Assembly: GCA_958295645.1 (NCBI GenBank)
Contig: OY282361.1
Span: 1,702,501-1,766,500 of the forward strand
Reading direction: 5' to 3'
DNA length: 64,000 nt
DNA from: Longimicrobiales bacterium
GTDB taxonomy: Bacteria > Gemmatimonadota > Gemmatimonadetes > Longimicrobiales > Gaopeijiaceae
Within the stretch, counting starts at the first letter, position 1; the number at the start of each line of letters is the position of its first letter. Positions 19,903 through 61,365 of this stretch are shown here, piece after piece. Below the pieces are notes generated by a model. That model was not told the origin of the DNA. It worked only from the letters and a program-made list of their open reading frames with translations, and did no database searches. A program made the position numbers and the translations under genes.

Positions 19903-21468
19903 TCACCCGCCTCCTGCGCGCACTCTCGTCCAGCGCGTTCCGCTTGGCGTGTCCTCGATGCGGACTCCCTGGGCCGCGAGTTCGTCGCGGATGCGGTCGG
20001 CCGTCGCGAAGTCTCGGCGCCCGCGGGCTTCGTCGCGGGCTGCCACGAGCCGCTTGATGCCGTCCTCGGCGTCCTCTTCGAGCCTGCGCGACCCGTCTCC
20101 GAGGTCCAGAACGCCCAGCACGGCGTCGATTCCGGCTAGGGCCTGAAGGAGGGCTTGCCGGTCCTCGGATGCGATGCCGTGCGGGGCCGCGTCCATGGCG
20201 GCGTTGGCCTCCCTGACCATCGTCCAGAGTTCGGCCAGGGCGCGCGAGACGTTCAAGTCGTCGTCGAGAGCCCCGAGAAAGGCGTCCAGGCCGCATCGCG
20301 CGCGCTCCGCGAGGTTCGGGGTCGCCGGCGAGCCGGGAGCCGGGGGCGGGTTGGGCGAAGGCAGGGGGCTGGAGGCCGGGAGCGTGTCCGGGCCAGAGGC
20401 CGCGCCGGGGCCGGAGGGCCGACCGGAGGGAGAGGCCGAGCCCGGCGGAGAGGGCAGTTCGCGCACGCGGCGGCGGAAGTCGAGGAGCCGCTGCACTGCG
20501 GTCGCTGCGGCCTCCAATCCCGCGCGGGTGAAGTCGAGTTCGCTCCGGTAGTGGGCGGACAGCAGTATCCAGCGGATCGCGGCGGGATCGTGGCCTTCGT
20601 CCAACAGGTCGCGCACGGTGTAGTAGTTGCCGGCGGACTTGGACATCTTGCGCCCTTCGACCTTCAGGTGCTTGACGTGCAGCCAGTATCGCGCGAACGG
20701 CTTCCCCGTGGCCGCTTCGGACTGAGCGATCTCGTTCTCGTGATGGGGGAAGAGGAGGTCCTCGCCGCCCAGGTGGATGTCGATCGTGTCGCCCAGCATG
20801 GTGGTGCTCATGGCCGAGCACTCCAGGTGCCAACCCGGCCGTCCTTCGCCCCAGGGCGAGTCCCACACGGCTCCTGCCGCCCGGTCGGCCGGGCGCGCCG
20901 CCTTCCAGAGCGCGAAGTCCCGCGCGTCGCCCTTCTCGTATTCGTCGGCGTCGATTCGCGAGCGTCCCGCGTCCACCGCGCCCGCCTCGCCCACCCCGCA
21001 GCCCGACAGCCTCCCGTAGTTCTCGAACGAAGAGACGGAGTAGTAGACGGAGCCGTCGGCGGCGGCGTAGGCGTGTCCTTGGGCCAGGAGCCGCTTGATG
21101 AAGTCCGTCATCACCTCCACGAACTCGGTCGCGCGGGGGTGCTGGGAGAAGGGCAGCAGACCGAGGACCCTGGCGTCCTCCCGAAACGCGCGCACGAAGG
21201 GCTCGGTGTGCTCTTCGAGCGACCGTCCGGCCCCGGCGGCGCCCTCGATGGTCTTGTCGTCGACATCGGTCAGGTTGACCACGAACTCGACCTCGTGGCC
21301 GCGCGCTCGCAGGTGGCGGTGAAGCAGATCGTAGACGAGGAAGGCCCGGAAGTTGCCGACGTGGGCGAAGTCGTAGACGGTGGGACCACATCCGTAGACC
21401 GCGACCCGCGGCGGATCCAGGGGCGCGAAGTCCACCCGCTCGCGCCGCAGGGAGTCGTACAGCTTCAC
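19903..21468 (-). CDS. cysS: Cysteinyl-tRNA synthetase
   Basis: Charges tRNA-Cys. It is 521 residues long, about 60 more than the Escherichia coli enzyme. The zinc-binding YGCGPTVYDFAHVGNFR carries the HIGH-type motif (HVGN); WHLECSAMS, HHENEIAQSE and the KMSKS signature (RKMSKSAGN) are present. The extra length is a Pro/Ser/Gly-rich linker of roughly 50 residues near positions 345-395, between the stem-contact fold and the C-terminal helical domain. The GTG start is overlapped by the stop of a 25-codon duplicated mini-cistron (GTGA). Confidence 0.95.
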   Translation of the reverse strand: MKLYDSLRRERVDFAPLDPPRVAVYGCGPTVYDFAHVGNFRAFLVYDLLHRHLRARGHEVEFVVNLTDVDDKTIEGAAGAGRSLEEHTEPFVRAFREDARVLGLLPFSQHPRATEFVEVMTDFIKRLLAQGHAYAAADGSVYYSVSSFENYGRLSGCGVGEAGAVDAGRSRIDADEYEKGDARDFALWKAARPADRAAGAVWDSPWGEGRPGWHLECSAMSTTMLGDTIDIHLGGEDLLFPHHENEIAQSEAATGKPFARYWLHVKHLKVEGRKMSKSAGNYYTVRDLLDEGHDPAAIRWILLSAHYRSELDFTRAGLEAAATAVQRLLDFRRRVRELPSPPGSASPSGRPSGPGAASGPDTLPASSPLPSPNPPPAPGSPATPNLAERARCGLDAFLGALDDDLNVSRALAELWTMVREANAAMDAAPHGIASEDRQALLQALAGIDAVLGVLDLGDGSRRLEEDAEDGIKRLVAARDEARGRRDFATADRIRDELAAQGVRIEDTPSGTRWTRVRAGGG

Positions 21469-21562
21469 GATCTGCCGACTTCTGCGCGATGGCGCGTACC
21501 GCGCCCGCCGCCTTGCGTCCGACCGGAGTCGTACAGCTTCACGAGCTGCCTGCTTCTGCGCG
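21451..21562. repeat. 38-base direct repeat of the pyrF/cysS junction
   Basis: 21451-21488 and 21525-21562 match at 35 of 38 positions. Each copy carries GTGAAGCTGTACGACTCC on the minus strand. In the left copy this is the true cysS start; in the right copy the TGA is the pyrF stop and the overlapping GTG opens a 25-codon frame (complement 21465-21542). That frame's own stop overlaps the real cysS GTG. Confidence 0.85.
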
Positions 21563-22297
21563 GCCCGTCTCCGCGCTCCCGGCCAGGTCGGCGAACGCCT
21601 GCGCCGGGTCGAGGGCTTGCGTGACCGGACGGCCGACCACGACGTGGCTGGCCCCCGCCGCGAACGCCTCTGCCGGGGTTCGCACGCGCTTCTGGTCGCC
21701 CGCGTCGGCGCCGGGGGGACGGATGCCGGGCGTCACGATCGCCGCCTCCGCACCCAGCACGGGACGCAACAGGGCCGCCTCCGCGGCAGAGCAAACGACG
21801 CCGCCCAAGCCCGCGTCGCGAACCGCGGCCGCATAGCGCCGGGCCTCGGCGCCTACGTTCTGCACGCTGCGTCCGAGGACTCCGCCCAGCGACTCCGCGT
21901 CGTGCGAGGTCAGCACGGTGACGCCCAGCACGGTCGTGCCGGGCCCCGCGCCCGCTGCCGCGGCCCGCAGCATGGCCGAACCACCCATCGCGTGCACCGT
22001 CAGCAGGCTGGCGCCCAATCGGGACGCCCGCGCCACGGCCCGCGCCACCGTGTTCGGTATGTCGTGGAACTTGAGGTCGAGGAACACCTGCTTGCCTTTC
22101 TCGCGAAGCTCCGCCACCACGGCCGGCCCGGCCGTCGCGTACAGCTCCATCCCAACCTTGTAGAACCGGCAACCGTCGCCCAGCCGGTCCACCAGCGCGA
22201 GGGCGGTGGACGGGCTCGGGAAGTCGAGGGCCACGATGATCCTGCCGCCTTCGACGGAAGACGGAGGCCGGGCAACCACGATGCCCCCGCCGCTCAT
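21539..22297 (-). CDS. pyrF: Orotidine-5'-phosphate decarboxylase
   Basis: Last step of UMP synthesis; 252 residues. Catalytic tetrad region FLDLKFHDIPNT (Lys, Asp) is present, with IIVALDFPS at the first strand, VHAMGGSAM, and the phosphate-binding PGIRPPGADAGDQKR and VVGRPVTQA. The ATG start overlaps the pyrD stop (ATGA), so the two pyrimidine enzymes are translationally coupled. The stop lies inside the duplicated junction shared with cysS. Confidence 0.93.
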   Translation of the reverse strand: MSGGGIVVARPPSSVEGGRIIVALDFPSPSTALALVDRLGDGCRFYKVGMELYATAGPAVVAELREKGKQVFLDLKFHDIPNTVARAVARASRLGASLLTVHAMGGSAMLRAAAAGAGPGTTVLGVTVLTSHDAESLGGVLGRSVQNVGAEARRYAAAVRDAGLGGVVCSAAEAALLRPVLGAEAAIVTPGIRPPGADAGDQKRVRTPAEAFAAGASHVVVGRPVTQALDPAQAFADLAGSAETGRAEAGSS

Positions 22298-23352
22298 GGA
22301 ACCGTCATCTCCCGAGGGACCGTCCGCTCGTCCCGAGGAGCCGTCCGCCCATCAACTGGTTCAAGCTCGCCGACCTGCCCGCGCCCGACTCGTCGCGACG
22401 CCGACGCCGGCCGACCGCGCGCTCGCTCGAGCGCGTCGTACGCCAGCGCCCGGGCGATGCGAGCCGCGCAACGGGGGTCGGCGAACGAACCCGTGCCGAC
22501 CTGCACGAAGGTGGCGCCCGCGGCCAAGTAGGCGCGCGCGTCCTCCGGCGACAGGACGCCGCCCGAGCCGGCCACGGGAACGCGGGTGGCCGCCGCGACT
22601 GCCCGAACCGCCGCCAGTCCCGTCGGCAGAAGAGCCGGGCCGCTCGTCCCTCCCGGCCCCGCGCCCAGCCGCGCACCGCCGTCCGTCCGCAACAAGAGTC
22701 CCGGCATGGTGTTGACGGCGGTGATTCCATCCGCGCCGCGAGCCGCGGCCGTGGCGGCGGTGGCGCCGATGTCGGGATCGTTGGGCGCAAGCTTGGCCAG
22801 CAACGGGCGCGAGGTGAGAGGCCGAACCTCGTCCAGGATCTCCCCCATCGCCGCACCGTCCAGACTGAACGGTCTGCCGCTGGCGTGTTCGTCGTTGGGA
22901 CAGGAGAGGTTGAGTTCGTATCCCAGGAAGCCGTCCTCCGCGTCCAAGCCGCGCACCACGGCCGCGTACTCGGCGGCGGACCGCCCCGCGACCGAGACCC
23001 AGACCGGCAGTCCGCCCAACGCCCGGGCCATCCAAGGCAGCTTCTCGCGCCGGACGGCCTCCAGCCCCGGGTTGGCGAGCCCCACCGAGTTCAGCATCCC
23101 CTCGGGAAACTCCGCCACTCTCGGCGCGGGGTTGCCCCGGCGCGGCTCCACCGTCACCGACTTCGTGACCAAGGCGCCCACTTCCGACGGCGACATCACG
23201 GCGACGACGGGTTCGCCGAATCCGCAGGTGCCCGCCGCCAGCCACACCGGGCCGGCGAACGAAGCCCCAAAGGCGGACACCACGCCGACGGCGCTCTCCG
23301 CGGGGGCGCCCTTTCCCGCGGGACTCCGGCCGACTCCCGGCGCAAGGCTCAC
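22294..23352 (-). CDS. pyrD: Dihydroorotate dehydrogenase, class 1
   Basis: Oxidises dihydroorotate to orotate. It is 352 residues long, with the class 1 cytosolic signature: catalytic Cys in ELNLSCPND, LAKLAPNDPDIG, ITAVNTMPG and the flavin-phosphate loops GSGGVLSPEDA and VQVGTG. The C-terminal tail after about residue 305 is a low-complexity Arg-rich extension that includes two 7-residue repeats (RTAPRDE, RTVPREM). The GTG start overlaps the stop of a 48-codon repeat ORF. Class 1B enzymes need a PyrK electron-transfer partner, which is not seen here. Confidence 0.92.
   Translation of the reverse strand: MSLAPGVGRSPAGKGAPAESAVGVVSAFGASFAGPVWLAAGTCGFGEPVVAVMSPSEVGALVTKSVTVEPRRGNPAPRVAEFPEGMLNSVGLANPGLEAVRREKLPWMARALGGLPVWVSVAGRSAAEYAAVVRGLDAEDGFLGYELNLSCPNDEHASGRPFSLDGAAMGEILDEVRPLTSRPLLAKLAPNDPDIGATAATAAARGADGITAVNTMPGLLLRTDGGARLGAGPGGTSGPALLPTGLAAVRAVAAATRVPVAGSGGVLSPEDARAYLAAGATFVQVGTGSFADPRCAARIARALAYDALERARGRPASASRRVGRGQVGELEPVDGRTAPRDERTVPREMTVP
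22299..22340. repeat. 21-base tandem repeat at pyrD-pyrF junction
   Basis: Two adjacent 21-base units (22299-22319, 22320-22340) encode the repeated RTAPRDE/RTVPREM at the pyrD C-terminus and run into the pyrF ATG. Each unit holds a CTCGGGA(G/C) stretch that could serve as a ribosome-binding site for pyrF. Confidence 0.6.
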
Positions 23353-23495
23353 TCGCGATCCTCCACGGCCCTCGGCGCAACATTCATTGGGCGGTCGTCG
23401 ACGGCTCTCGGCGCGACATCCATCAAGCGCTCCTCGGCAACTCTCGACACAACGTCCATTGAGCGCTCCTCGGCAACTCTCGGCGCAAGGCTCAT
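23349..23495 (-). CDS. 48-residue repeat mini-ORF linking smpB and pyrD
   Basis: Short frame made almost only of four 12-residue repeats of the form M-x-V-A-P-R-V-A-E-E-R-x. Its ATG overlaps the smpB stop (ATGA) and its stop overlaps the pyrD GTG (GTGA), so ribosomes could pass from smpB through it to pyrD. Every repeat begins with ATG preceded by a GAGGA or GAGGAG Shine-Dalgarno-like stretch, so each can initiate. It is probably a translational coupler rather than a functional protein; no family is recognised. Confidence 0.45.
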   Translation of the reverse strand: MSLAPRVAEERSMDVVSRVAEERLMDVAPRAVDDRPMNVAPRAVEDRE

Positions 23496-23499
23496 TCGC
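23356..23499. repeat. 36-base tandem repeat, four copies, each with RBS and ATG
   Basis: Units at 23356-23391, 23392-23427, 23428-23463 and 23464-23499. Read on the minus strand each has a start codon; the best pair reads GAGGAGCGCTCAATG, with GAGGAG six bases from ATG. The beginning of pyrD (MSLAPGVG) and the end of smpB (ERAVKERE) look like decayed fifth and sixth copies. There are no unique spacers, so this is not a CRISPR array. Confidence 0.85.
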
Positions 23500-23962
23500 G
23501 CTCCTTGACGGCTCGTTCGGCTTCGCGGTCCATCGTCTTTCGCCTCAGCTCCTCGCGGCGGTCCCGGTGCTTCTTCCCGCGGCACAGCGCCAGCGTGACC
23601 TTGGCCACGCCCCGCCGAAAATAAATGTCCAGCGGGATCAGGGTGAGCCCCTTCTCCTCCATCTTGGCGATCATGCGGCGGATTTGGTCGCGGTGCAGCA
23701 ACAACTTGCGGGGACGGGTCTCGTCGTGATTCCACCGGTTGGCGCCGCCGTAGGGAGAGACGTGCAGGTTGTAGAGCCACAGTTCGCCCGCCGCGGGACG
23801 CGCGTGAGCGTCCTGGAACGCGACCTTCCCTGCCCTCACCGACTTGACCTCCGTCCCGTGCAGGACCAGGCCCGCCTCCCAGGTGTCCAGGATTTCGTAG
23901 GCGTGGCGGGCCTTCTTGTTGCGCGCCACGACTCGCCGCGAGCGCGCCGGAGTCCCCGTCAA
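23492..23962 (-). CDS. smpB: SsrA-binding protein SmpB
   Basis: Binds tmRNA and delivers it to stalled ribosomes. About 156 residues from the TTG at 23962, which overlaps the transpeptidase stop (TTGA); GTG at 23929 would give 145. Family landmarks are ARNKKARHAYEILDTWEAG, HGTEVKSVRAGKVAF, LHVSPYGGANRWNHD, RPRKLLLHRDQI and the basic tail with GKKHRDRREE. SmpB proteins usually have 10-20 residues before the ARNKKAR motif, which favours the TTG. No tmRNA gene is visible in the window. Confidence 0.92.
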   Translation of the reverse strand: MTGTPARSRRVVARNKKARHAYEILDTWEAGLVLHGTEVKSVRAGKVAFQDAHARPAAGELWLYNLHVSPYGGANRWNHDETRPRKLLLHRDQIRRMIAKMEEKGLTLIPLDIYFRRGVAKVTLALCRGKKHRDRREELRRKTMDREAERAVKERE

Positions 23963-53828: not shown

Positions 53829-55247
53829 TCACTTGCTCGCAGGAGCCCGCCGGCCCACTGCGGCCCCCGGCGCGACGACACGCAAGACGCGAGCCGCGGA
53901 CCGTTCAAGGTCGTCGCTGACCACTCCTGCGAGCAGGCTGTCGTTGCCGGCCATGGGACGGAACCCGTCCGGCAAGGAAACCGCCCCTAGGAACGTCGCC
54001 TCCGTGCCGCCAACGTCGAAGATGTCCCACAACCTGCTCGCGTTCGGCCGACCGAGAGGGCCAGCGTACTCGTCGTCCACGCCAAGACCCCGCTCCACCC
54101 ACAACGCGCCCGGCGGACCCCAGAAGACATTGGTGATCATGGGAAACGATTCGATTCCGTCGGCCATGTCGACCGGTGGGGCCGACCTCCGCACGAGGGA
54201 CGACCAGTCTTCCGGCGCCTCGCCCGGGTGCGCGAGGTGGCGACGCAGGTCTCTCAGGAACGAAGCCGTGGGCCGCCGCTGGGACACGTCGCGAGCGATC
54301 GTGCCAAGGGTGTCGCCTGACTCGCCGGCGATGACGTGCAGAACGTATTTGTCGCCGTAACCGGCCACCACACGACCCTCGGGCATTGAAGCCAACAGCG
54401 GAAACGCGCGAAACGGGTTGAAGAGGCGCATGAAATCGTCCGCTCGGCGCTTGTGCCACACCCGACTCCCGTCCGACGCGCCCAACACCATCGCAAATAG
54501 CCCGCCGTCGCTCACGTCCGCCGTCATTCTCCACGCGATGACGTTGCCAGCTGCGAGGGCCACCTTAACGGTCATGCCACCGACGGACGGCGCACTCCAC
54601 CGGCGGGTTTCAGCACCCTGCCAAGTGTAGAGTCCTGTGCGCATCCCGGCGGCGACAATGGTCTCGCCCTCAATGCCGACCATGACCACGCCGTCTAGTT
54701 CGCCTGGCCCATCTCCCATTCTGCCCCATTGCGCCACGACGTCTCCCTCCGCGGAGACGACAGCGATCTGTGGAGCGTCGGTCGAGCCATAGTCCGAAAC
54801 CACGATCCGGCCGTCGTCGAACATGGCCATGGCCACGATCACACCGAAGTGAAGCTCGGAATCGTCGAAGCCGATCGTAAACACTTCCTCCGTGCGCACG
54901 CCTACGCCGGTTTGGCCTTCCGCCCCAAGTGCTTCCGCTGCAAAGACGACTGTCCCGACCAGCGCGAAGCACCATACGAGCACCGTTAGCTTGTCAGGCT
55001 TTTTCTTGCGACGGACGTAATCGGCCAAGACTGCGATCGTCAGCAACAACCACGTCGCGGAAACGAGAATTTTCCCGATTGCGAGGCCTGTTTGGCTTTC
55101 CGTTGCCAAGACGACTGTCCAGGCCAGCGTGAGGCAGCACCATACGACCACCATTCCCTTGTCAGGCTTTTTCTTGCGACGGACGCAAACGGCCGATACT
55201 GCGATCGTCAGCAACAACCACGTCGCGAGAATGAGAATGTTCTCCAT
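53829..55247 (-). CDS. 6-bladed beta-propeller protein with duplicated membrane hairpin
   Basis: About 472 residues. The N-terminal 110 residues contain two copies of a 56-residue unit: hydrophobic [10 protein letters not shown], basic VRRKKKPDK, a second hydrophobic segment and a QTG turn. The rest is a beta-propeller with blade motifs [43 protein letters not shown] and [14 protein letters not shown] at 55247 is preferred since AAAGGAG lies five to six bases upstream. It is a paralogue of the next gene in line (31 bases upstream). Related propellers are abundant in soil and marine Gram-negatives; ligands are unknown. Confidence 0.72.
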
Positions 55248-55253
55248 TTCGAC
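54905..55253. repeat. 168-base tandem duplication in the propeller gene 5' end
   Basis: TTGTCAGGCTTTTTCTTGCG occurs at 54991 and again at 55159, 168 bases apart, and similarity extends over nearly the whole unit with one 3-base difference. The duplicated unit is in frame and encodes the two membrane-hairpin copies. Confidence 0.85.
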
Positions 55254-60603: not shown

Positions 60604-60617
60604 CGGGGTGGGCGGGC

Positions 60618-60750
60618 CATGGCAGGAGGCGCGGGTCATGGCAGGCCGAGGCGATCATGCCACGATCGGCGAGTTGTGGCAGGTTCGGCAAGAGATGGCA
60701 GGCCGCACAGACGATGGCAGGCCGAGCCGATCGTGCCAGGGTCGGCGGGC
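60618..60750. repeat. 19-base tandem repeat, seven copies, upstream of coaE
   Basis: Units begin at 60618, 60637, 60656, 60675, 60694, 60713 and 60732, exactly 19 bases apart. The core is (C/G)ATGGCAGG; every unit has ATG or GTG at the same place. Since 19 is not a multiple of three, successive start codons fall in different frames. Confidence 0.9.
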
Positions 60751-60762
60751 GGTGAGGCCGCG

Positions 60763-61365
60763 TTGCTGATCGTGGGGCTGACGGGCAACGTCGCGGCGGG
60801 CAAGACCGCGGTGGCGGAGATGTGGCGGGGCGCGGGCGTGCCGGTCGCTTCGGCGGACGAGTTCGCGCGGCGGGCGGTCGCGCCGGGGTCGGCCGCGCTG
60901 GCCCGAATCGCCGAACTGTTCGGTGAGGGGATCGTGGGCGCGGACGGGGAGATGGACCGGGCGGCGGTTCGGCGGATCGTGTTTGCCGACACCGGGGCTC
61001 GGCGGCGGCTGGAGGCCGTGGTCCATCCGGTCGTGAGGGTGTTGCGCGACGAATGGACGGAGGCGCGGCGAGCGCGGGGAGCGGAACTCGTGGCCTGGGA
61101 GGCGCCGTTGCTCTACGAGACGGGCATGGACGGCGAAGTGGACGTGGTCGTCGTCGTGGACGCGCCGGCGGACCTGCGGCGGAGGCGCGTCATGGAGAGG
61201 CGCGGCTTGGCGAGCGAGGAGGCGTTGGCGGTGATGGAGGCGCAGGCGTCTGCGGGAGACAAGCGGCGGCGGGCGGACTTCGTGGTCGCCAACGACGGGA
61301 GCCTCGAAGCGCTGGCGGCGCGGGCGGCCGAAGTGCTGGACGCCCTGCGGGGCCGGGCTCCATGA
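60763..61365 (+). CDS. coaE: Dephospho-CoA kinase
   Basis: Last step of coenzyme A synthesis; 200 residues, normal for the family. P-loop GLTGNVAAGKTAVAEMW, then SADEFARRAV, EAPLLYETGMD and VVVDAPADLRRRRVMERRG. TTG at 60763 gives MLIVGLTGN, the usual start, and has GGTGAGG five bases upstream; GTG 60733 inside the repeat array would add ten residues. The stop overlaps the next ATG (ATGA). Confidence 0.92.
   Translation: MLIVGLTGNVAAGKTAVAEMWRGAGVPVASADEFARRAVAPGSAALARIAELFGEGIVGADGEMDRAAVRRIVFADTGARRRLEAVVHPVVRVLRDEWTEARRARGAELVAWEAPLLYETGMDGEVDVVVVVDAPADLRRRRVMERRGLASEEALAVMEAQASAGDKRRRADFVVANDGSLEALAARAAEVLDALRGRAP

Follow-up and report, generated by a model that had tools for sequence, protein, structure and literature searches.

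How can a gene stay translationally coupled to its operon neighbour once additional sequence lies between the two? This question is raised by the pyrF-cysS junction of a Longimicrobiales bacterium, located in a window of 64,000 nucleotides (positions 1,702,501 to 1,766,500 of contig OY282361.1), where the stop/start overlap of the coupled-pair type is present twice.

The pyrF-cysS junction

The features of the junction are as follows.

21539-22297, minus strand: pyrF (OMP decarboxylase), Pfam PF00215
21525-21562, minus strand: repeat copy A, with the pyrF end, its TGA overlapped by a GTG and the first mini-ORF codons; 35 of 38 positions identical to copy B
21489-21524, minus strand: filler of 36 nt between copies A and B, unlike either flank
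21465-21542, minus strand: predicted mini-ORF of 25 codons, VKLYDSGRTQGGGRGTRHRAEVGRS, from the pyrF stop to the cysS start
21451-21488, minus strand: repeat copy B, with the end of the mini-ORF, whose TGA overlaps the GTG of cysS, and the opening codons of cysS
19903-21468, minus strand: cysS (cysteinyl-tRNA synthetase) with a GTG start, Pfam PF01406

The pyrF stop TGA (21541-21539) is overlapped by a GTG (21542-21540), and the mini-ORF opening there ends on a TGA (21467-21465) overlapping the cysS GTG (21468-21466), with GTGA present at 21542-21539 and again at 21468-21465. The gene identities are backed by Pfam: in the upstream protein, residues 19-235 match OMP decarboxylase, and in the downstream protein, which begins with VKLYDSL, the catalytic domain of cysteinyl-tRNA synthetase extends from residue 15 onward. 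These coordinates bear out the earlier note on this DNA, which had described a 38-nt stretch occurring twice with 35 identities, one copy holding the pyrF stop overlapped by a GTG and the other the cysS start, and a first GTG opening a 25-codon frame whose stop overlaps the cysS GTG. Its figure of 74 bases between the copies is correct as the offset from start to start but not as a gap, as only 36 nt separate the copies.

The best ungapped repeat in 21400-21700 scores 29, whereas none of 300 mononucleotide shuffles of this region exceeds 14, and a search of the 2.886-Mb genome with the 124-nt junction gives a single match. The filler shows no likeness beyond chance to the pyrF tail, 289 of 500 shuffles scoring as high, nor to the cysS 5' end, where 98 of 500 do. 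A clean 74-nt tandem repeat today is therefore rejected.

We consider that this architecture probably goes back to junction duplications that are specific to this lineage and were filtered by selection for coupling through termination-reinitiation, a reading that builds on the observed sequences, duplications and frames and on the simple-overlap fit of relatives at three junctions. Short stretches spanning an NTGA stop/start overlap would have been duplicated in place, repeatedly, in this lineage, the first copy retaining the stop of the upstream gene and the last copy the start of the downstream gene; at pyrF-cysS, a simple overlap would have preceded the duplication. When NTGA is repeated at distance L, the frame of the first start can terminate at the second TGA only for an L of 2 mod 3. 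With a unit of this class that lacks stops, the start of the first copy would automatically open a mini-cistron that ends on the next start and joins the opening codons of the downstream gene to the closing codons of the upstream gene. In multi-unit arrays the hand-over would run in relay, a unit of 1 mod 3 would break the relay and tend to be lost, and a unit of 0 mod 3 would give an in-frame N-terminal extension of the downstream gene.

On a presumed polycistronic mRNA, a ribosome that terminates at the end of pyrF would start anew on the GTG, read 25 codons, terminate again and then reinitiate at cysS, and by this route termination-reinitiation coupling would survive the insertion. According to one study with reporters (PMC10666635), the last 15 nt of the upstream gene suffice for coupling, and in native E. 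coli pairs a gap of 14 nt reduces coupling by 40-80% while one of 38 nt removes it almost or completely. The 70-nt gap after pyrF should thus uncouple cysS unless it is bridged, and the mini-cistron may provide this bridge.

Recurrence of duplicated junctions

A second case is located in the same operon, about 2 kb upstream of the pyrF-cysS junction.

23492-23929, minus strand: smpB, Pfam PF01668
23476-23512, minus strand: repeat copy at the smpB stop (ATGA), 32 of 37 positions identical to 23333-23369 at offset 143
23355-23482, minus strand: imperfect array of 36 nt between the two copies, 72 of 92 positions identical at offset 36
23349-23495, minus strand: predicted mini-ORF of 48 codons, MSLAPRVAEERS...AVEDRE, from the smpB stop to the pyrD start
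23333-23369, minus strand: repeat copy at the pyrD start (GTGA), the pair of 23476-23512
22294-23352, minus strand: pyrD with a GTG start, Pfam PF01180, its stop overlapping the pyrF ATG (ATGA)

SmpB, PyrD, PyrF and CysS are all assigned by Pfam, and the smpB/pyrD mini-ORF, MSLAPRVAEERSMDVVSRVAEERLMDVAPRAVDDRPMNVAPRAVEDRE, opens PyrD-like (VSLAP).

Further repeats were noticed in the window. The pyrD/pyrF junction (22294-22380) is a plain ATGA overlap, preceded by a pyrD tail that by eye resembles a 21-nt imperfect repeat. At 54968-55252 the 5' end of a minus-strand gene carries an imperfect tandem duplication of 168 nt (102 of 117 positions identical), which is 0 mod 3 and gives an in-frame protein extension. 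In the spacer at 60604-60760, units of the type ATGGCAGG recur (30 of 34 positions identical at offset 76) before a gene starting near 60763 that looks coaE-like by eye, a candidate duplicated start region.

The genome was sampled in 60 stretches of 20 kb which, with the window, amount to 1.259 Mb without N (44% of 2.886 Mb), and three relatives (G024, G025 and G004) were sampled over 395, 380 and 400 kb, with genes and starts taken from our own simple codon-usage caller. Co-directed pairs with a gap of at most 400 nt were scanned for a repeated NTGA with a score of at least 13, anchored at the upstream stop or the downstream start. Duplicated NTGA is found at 16 of 638 co-directed junctions in this genome versus 2 of 595 in the three relatives (Fisher 0.0014), individually 0 of 203 in G024, 1 of 166 in G025 and 1 of 226 in G004. 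An earlier scan of 438 pairs from the upstream stop had given 18 matches at 13 junctions versus 3 at control sites, these being up to five random stop-like sites per pair inside upstream genes; the relatives showed no clear difference between junctions and controls (2 and 4, 1 and 2, 2 and 0).

Twelve of the 16 rows are classed as linked, their copies connecting to the downstream start, and some of them form chains (17 nt three times, 17 twice, 35 twice and 11 twice). Left out were L186:5512, with a copy inside the upstream gene, and L194, L246 and L255, with copies out of register to the called downstream start. The architecture is thus observed at pyrF-cysS and smpB/pyrD in one operon and at ten further linked junctions in the sampled stretches; gene names below follow Pfam families except for both L186 genes and the last gene of the second L192 case.

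pyrF/cysS: unit of 74 nt
smpB/pyrD: unit of 143 nt
L138, GH3-beta-lactamase/SSF symporter: unit of 50 nt
L179, SDR/UbiA-family prenyltransferase: units of 17, 17 and 17 nt, giving VSLGAP, VSFGAP, VSLDAP, then VSLEERL
L183, ATP synthase epsilon-type/PHP: units of 11 and 11 nt, giving VTGR, VKRR, then VKLDL
L186: unit of 60 nt, in frame
L192, 2Fe-2S subunit/molybdopterin subunit: units of 35 and 35 nt, giving VTPSGAVARCQA, VTPGGATARCQA, then VTPGGAAP
L192, molybdopterin subunit/next gene: units of 45 and 45 nt in frame, after a 46-nt interval read through by the upstream gene
L244, PlsX/FabH: unit of 56 nt
L245, phosphoribosyltransferase (PyrR, judged by its place)/aspartate-ornithine carbamoyltransferase: units of 17 and 17 nt, giving MSARPE, MSAGLT, then MSASPK
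L251, MlaE/ABC ATPase: unit of 74 nt, giving VSIEIVAGQAWASRSRGACRSGPGR, then VSIEIRGL
L252, DHDPS/PurA: unit of 71 nt, giving MSGRFPEAGEGFADRRFAAMTAGR, then MSGRAAP

The stops of the linked mini-ORFs overlap the next start at -4 nt, as in the ORFs of mycobacterial MIRU repeats; ribosome-delivering uORFs also have a stop that overlaps the start of the gene they serve. In L251 the first copied start lies 11 nt past the upstream stop, and in L138 and L244 it lies within, and in frame with, a mini-ORF opening on the upstream stop. At L183 (3180-3340, minus strand) a GGGAGG start region is additionally repeated at offset 39 (32 of 34 positions identical), the upstream copy having GCG for the GTG start; a 39-codon ORF still bridges this junction.

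As to the cause of the duplications, loss of mismatch repair was rejected, the MutS and MutL families being present. In the whole genome of this bacterium (G000), MutS_V has two matches versus three in each of three relatives, and the strongest MutS match and MutL are present.

The sampled genomes also yield counts that speak against our preferred reading. Bridged junctions of any origin number 55 of 638 here, 18 of 203 in G024, 9 of 166 in G025 and 8 of 226 in G004, a share about equal here and in G024 and lower in the other two; this genome is set apart by the duplication and not by bridging itself. Its overall density of short repeats is higher, at 54 per Mb versus 25, 18 and 32 in the relatives. 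Both observations are what would be expected if the copies were neutral debris, with many local short duplications tolerated at junctions, mini-ORFs opening by chance in stop-poor high-GC DNA and cysS starting independently. Few stops occur in the bridging phase, with 0.0115 per codon in other spacers, and spacers are unconserved in relatives. This explanation has to be reckoned with, though we hold it to be unlikely in view of the frame of the duplications.

Frame of the duplications and phase of the spacers

Among the 12 linked duplications, ten have units of 2 mod 3 and the remaining two have units of 0 mod 3 (P 5e-4 for at least ten). As the rule was first noted on three cases, the fairer count is that of the nine cases from later stretches, seven of which are 2 mod 3 (P 0.008); among all 16 rows it is 12 (P 8e-4). 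The same bias is apparent from spacers in general: pairs with NTGA at both ends and a gap of 20-250 nt fall into phases 0, 1 and 2 as 13, 7 and 26 (2 versus 1, P 0.0013), and as 21 versus 5 for phase 2 versus 1 without the nine linked duplications contained in this set (P 0.0025). The phase-2 spacers are open in 24 of 26 cases, versus 18.7 +/- 2.2 expected. Pairs with NTGA at neither end are spread evenly in this genome (38/40/40), those with NTGA at the downstream start only give 18/22/31, and those with NTGA at the upstream stop only give 46/14/16, as expected where the caller missed the true overlapping start. A first frame test with gaps of 5-250 nt pooled over four genomes had given 49 versus 17, with a skew in other pairs as well (246 versus 188); it was replaced by gaps of at least 20 nt because short gaps may follow Shine-Dalgarno spacing.

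The excess in phase 2 and the bias of the linked duplications argue against neutral debris and are consistent with selection for coupling as the cause of the frame bias. The earlier claim that coupling was kept through the duplication is thus partly supported, by way of the other junctions of the same genome. Several counts nevertheless run against this reading. The second L192 case, L194 and L246 also hold an adjacent 1 mod 3 interval, and the repeat loci here that are not confined to a gene, junctions included, are mostly 0 mod 3 (19/3/8 in phases 0, 1 and 2); of the 38 loci confined to genes, 36 are 0 mod 3. In the relatives, pairs with NTGA at both ends show no significant phase excess (8/9/13), and a lean to phase 2 is seen in those with NTGA at neither end as well (36/41/62), again a point against the reading.

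The frame also bears on the proposal that the copies persist because they serve as duplicated initiation sites or phase-variable repeats tuning the downstream gene, with peptide and frame irrelevant. Multi-unit arrays exist, the 36-nt units of smpB/pyrD repeat a GAGGAG-like stretch and an ATG, and the minus-strand repeats of L183 bear GGGAGG near the start, all of which would suit such a role. An irrelevant frame is at odds with the frame bias, the overlapping stop is retained in most linked copies, and RNA structure was rejected as a candidate, there being no folding signal at the five junctions tested (z between -0.44 and 1.24); taken together, this proposal appears improbable.

That the mini-ORFs encode functional small proteins is very improbable. 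While some bridging ORFs from the scan resemble ordinary small genes, such as one in L195 that is presumably YidD-like, the duplicated mini-ORFs have only 4 to 48 codons and are chimeras of the ends of their neighbours. The junctions are moreover mutually unlike: each of 14 junctions compared by BLAST with the 1.26-Mb sample matches itself, the sole cross-match being a weak one of 28 nt from L252 to L246 7046-7073, outside the L246 junction.

Relatives, known systems and consequences

The nearest relatives share 62-63% PyrF identity, and none of the compared genomes is labelled as the same genus. In G024, the nearest relative, the pyrF/cysS spacer is 156 nt long and unrelated, which is literally what the earlier note had named as evidence against its reading, namely relatives with an unrelated spacer and an independent cysS start; at such a distance, this rather points to a lineage-specific event and does not refute the reading. 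The sequence after pyrF in the nearest relative but one, G025 (L004), reads as N, and the comparison was made without it. Across the family pyrF/cysS spacers vary, often with a further ~450-800 nt or more in between. Conservation of the bridge in the family was looked for and not found, and at the 132 other pyrF stops that could be tested no junction duplication is present.

To infer the polarity of the change, 12 of the gene pairs were compared with DNA of relatives, in which eight adjacent pairs were found. The expansion looks derived at three junctions where relatives fit a simple 4-nt overlap: GH3/SSF has a single GTGA overlap in G025 (76% and 70% identity), smpB/pyrD fits a single GTGA overlap in G024 and overlaps in G025 too, and MlaE/ABC ATPase in G025, at 45-46% identity and perhaps as a paralogous pair, is compatible with one ATGA overlap. 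Against this stand smpB/pyrD in G015 and G022, with a longer spacer and no overlap, and atpC/PHP in G024, with a TAG stop and a 21-nt gap. At SDR/UbiA in G024 a 40-nt gap is bridged by an unrelated 15-codon ORF.

For two further pairs the distances are hand estimates. The 2Fe-2S/molybdopterin gap, estimated from coordinates alone, is +66 here versus about +2 in G024, +5 in G025 and -10 in G004, with +20 in G013, +23 in G020, +110 in G006, +121 in G003 and 1.6 kb in G018, the compact gaps belonging to the two nearest genomes (83-87% identity). Between the aligned ends of the PyrR-like protein and the carbamoyltransferase there are 14-50 nt in G020, G006, G018, G004 and G003 and 84-93 nt at the corresponding points here. 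In G024, G025 and G013 the two matches either overlap or are at most 10 nt apart, and the upstream match crosses a TGA.

A junction duplication is also present in a relative. At L235 of G004 (12387-12313, minus strand) two 37-nt units hold a mini-ORF, VSASAGARGPCRGERERWREEPLPG, that ends on the copied start and resembles the end of the upstream protein. The units are each 1 mod 3 and are bridged together as 74, which counts against our reading.

The nearest known systems are the MIRUs of mycobacteria, which work alike but are not the same. According to a 2025 review (PMC12548453), the MIRU is an apparently mobile repeat containing an ORF that is coupled at -4 nt to the gene that follows. Short units at gene junctions, an ORF overlapping the next start at -4 nt and copy-number arrays are shared (PMC12548453, PMC2734929), whereas MIRUs form a dispersed, apparently mobile family and here each unit copies its own flanking genes. 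A MIRU-like dispersed repeat was rejected on the mutual unlikeness of the 14 junctions. With termination-reinitiation of overlapping genes (PMC6728339, PMC10666635) the junctions share the NTGA overlap as presumed hand-over site, but here the two genes are separated by one additional mini-cistron or by several in a chain. Ribosome-delivering uORFs and bicistronic designs, as treated in PMC12548453, likewise have a short ORF with its stop overlapping the next start and a proposed role in ribosome delivery; here the ORF lies within an operon, opens on the stop codon of the gene before it and derives from junction duplication. In the literature searched, which took in a minority of subscription journals, no title or opening of an abstract mentions junction duplications giving rise to bridging mini-cistrons.

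A bolder version of the reading, which we regard as decidedly doubtful, is that of genome-wide self-generating coupler relays, in which junctions would grow and shrink by 2 mod 3 units with one mini-cistron each and copy number would set downstream translation. If this were true, the junctions would act on cysS, pyrD, the pyrB-like carbamoyltransferase, purA, fabH and the UbiA-family prenyltransferase like a translational rheostat with heritable, graded settings, and not like an on/off switch.

With respect to operon evolution, junction duplication would offer a mechanical route by which an operon junction may lengthen without uncoupling, with a mod-3 rule predicting which insertions survive. 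The natural chains of two or three mini-cistrons, down to 4-6 codons, would bear on the minimum length of a cistron that can pass on a ribosome. Finally, tiny chimeric ORFs may arise in this way in one step, a class that ordinary annotation would probably overlook.
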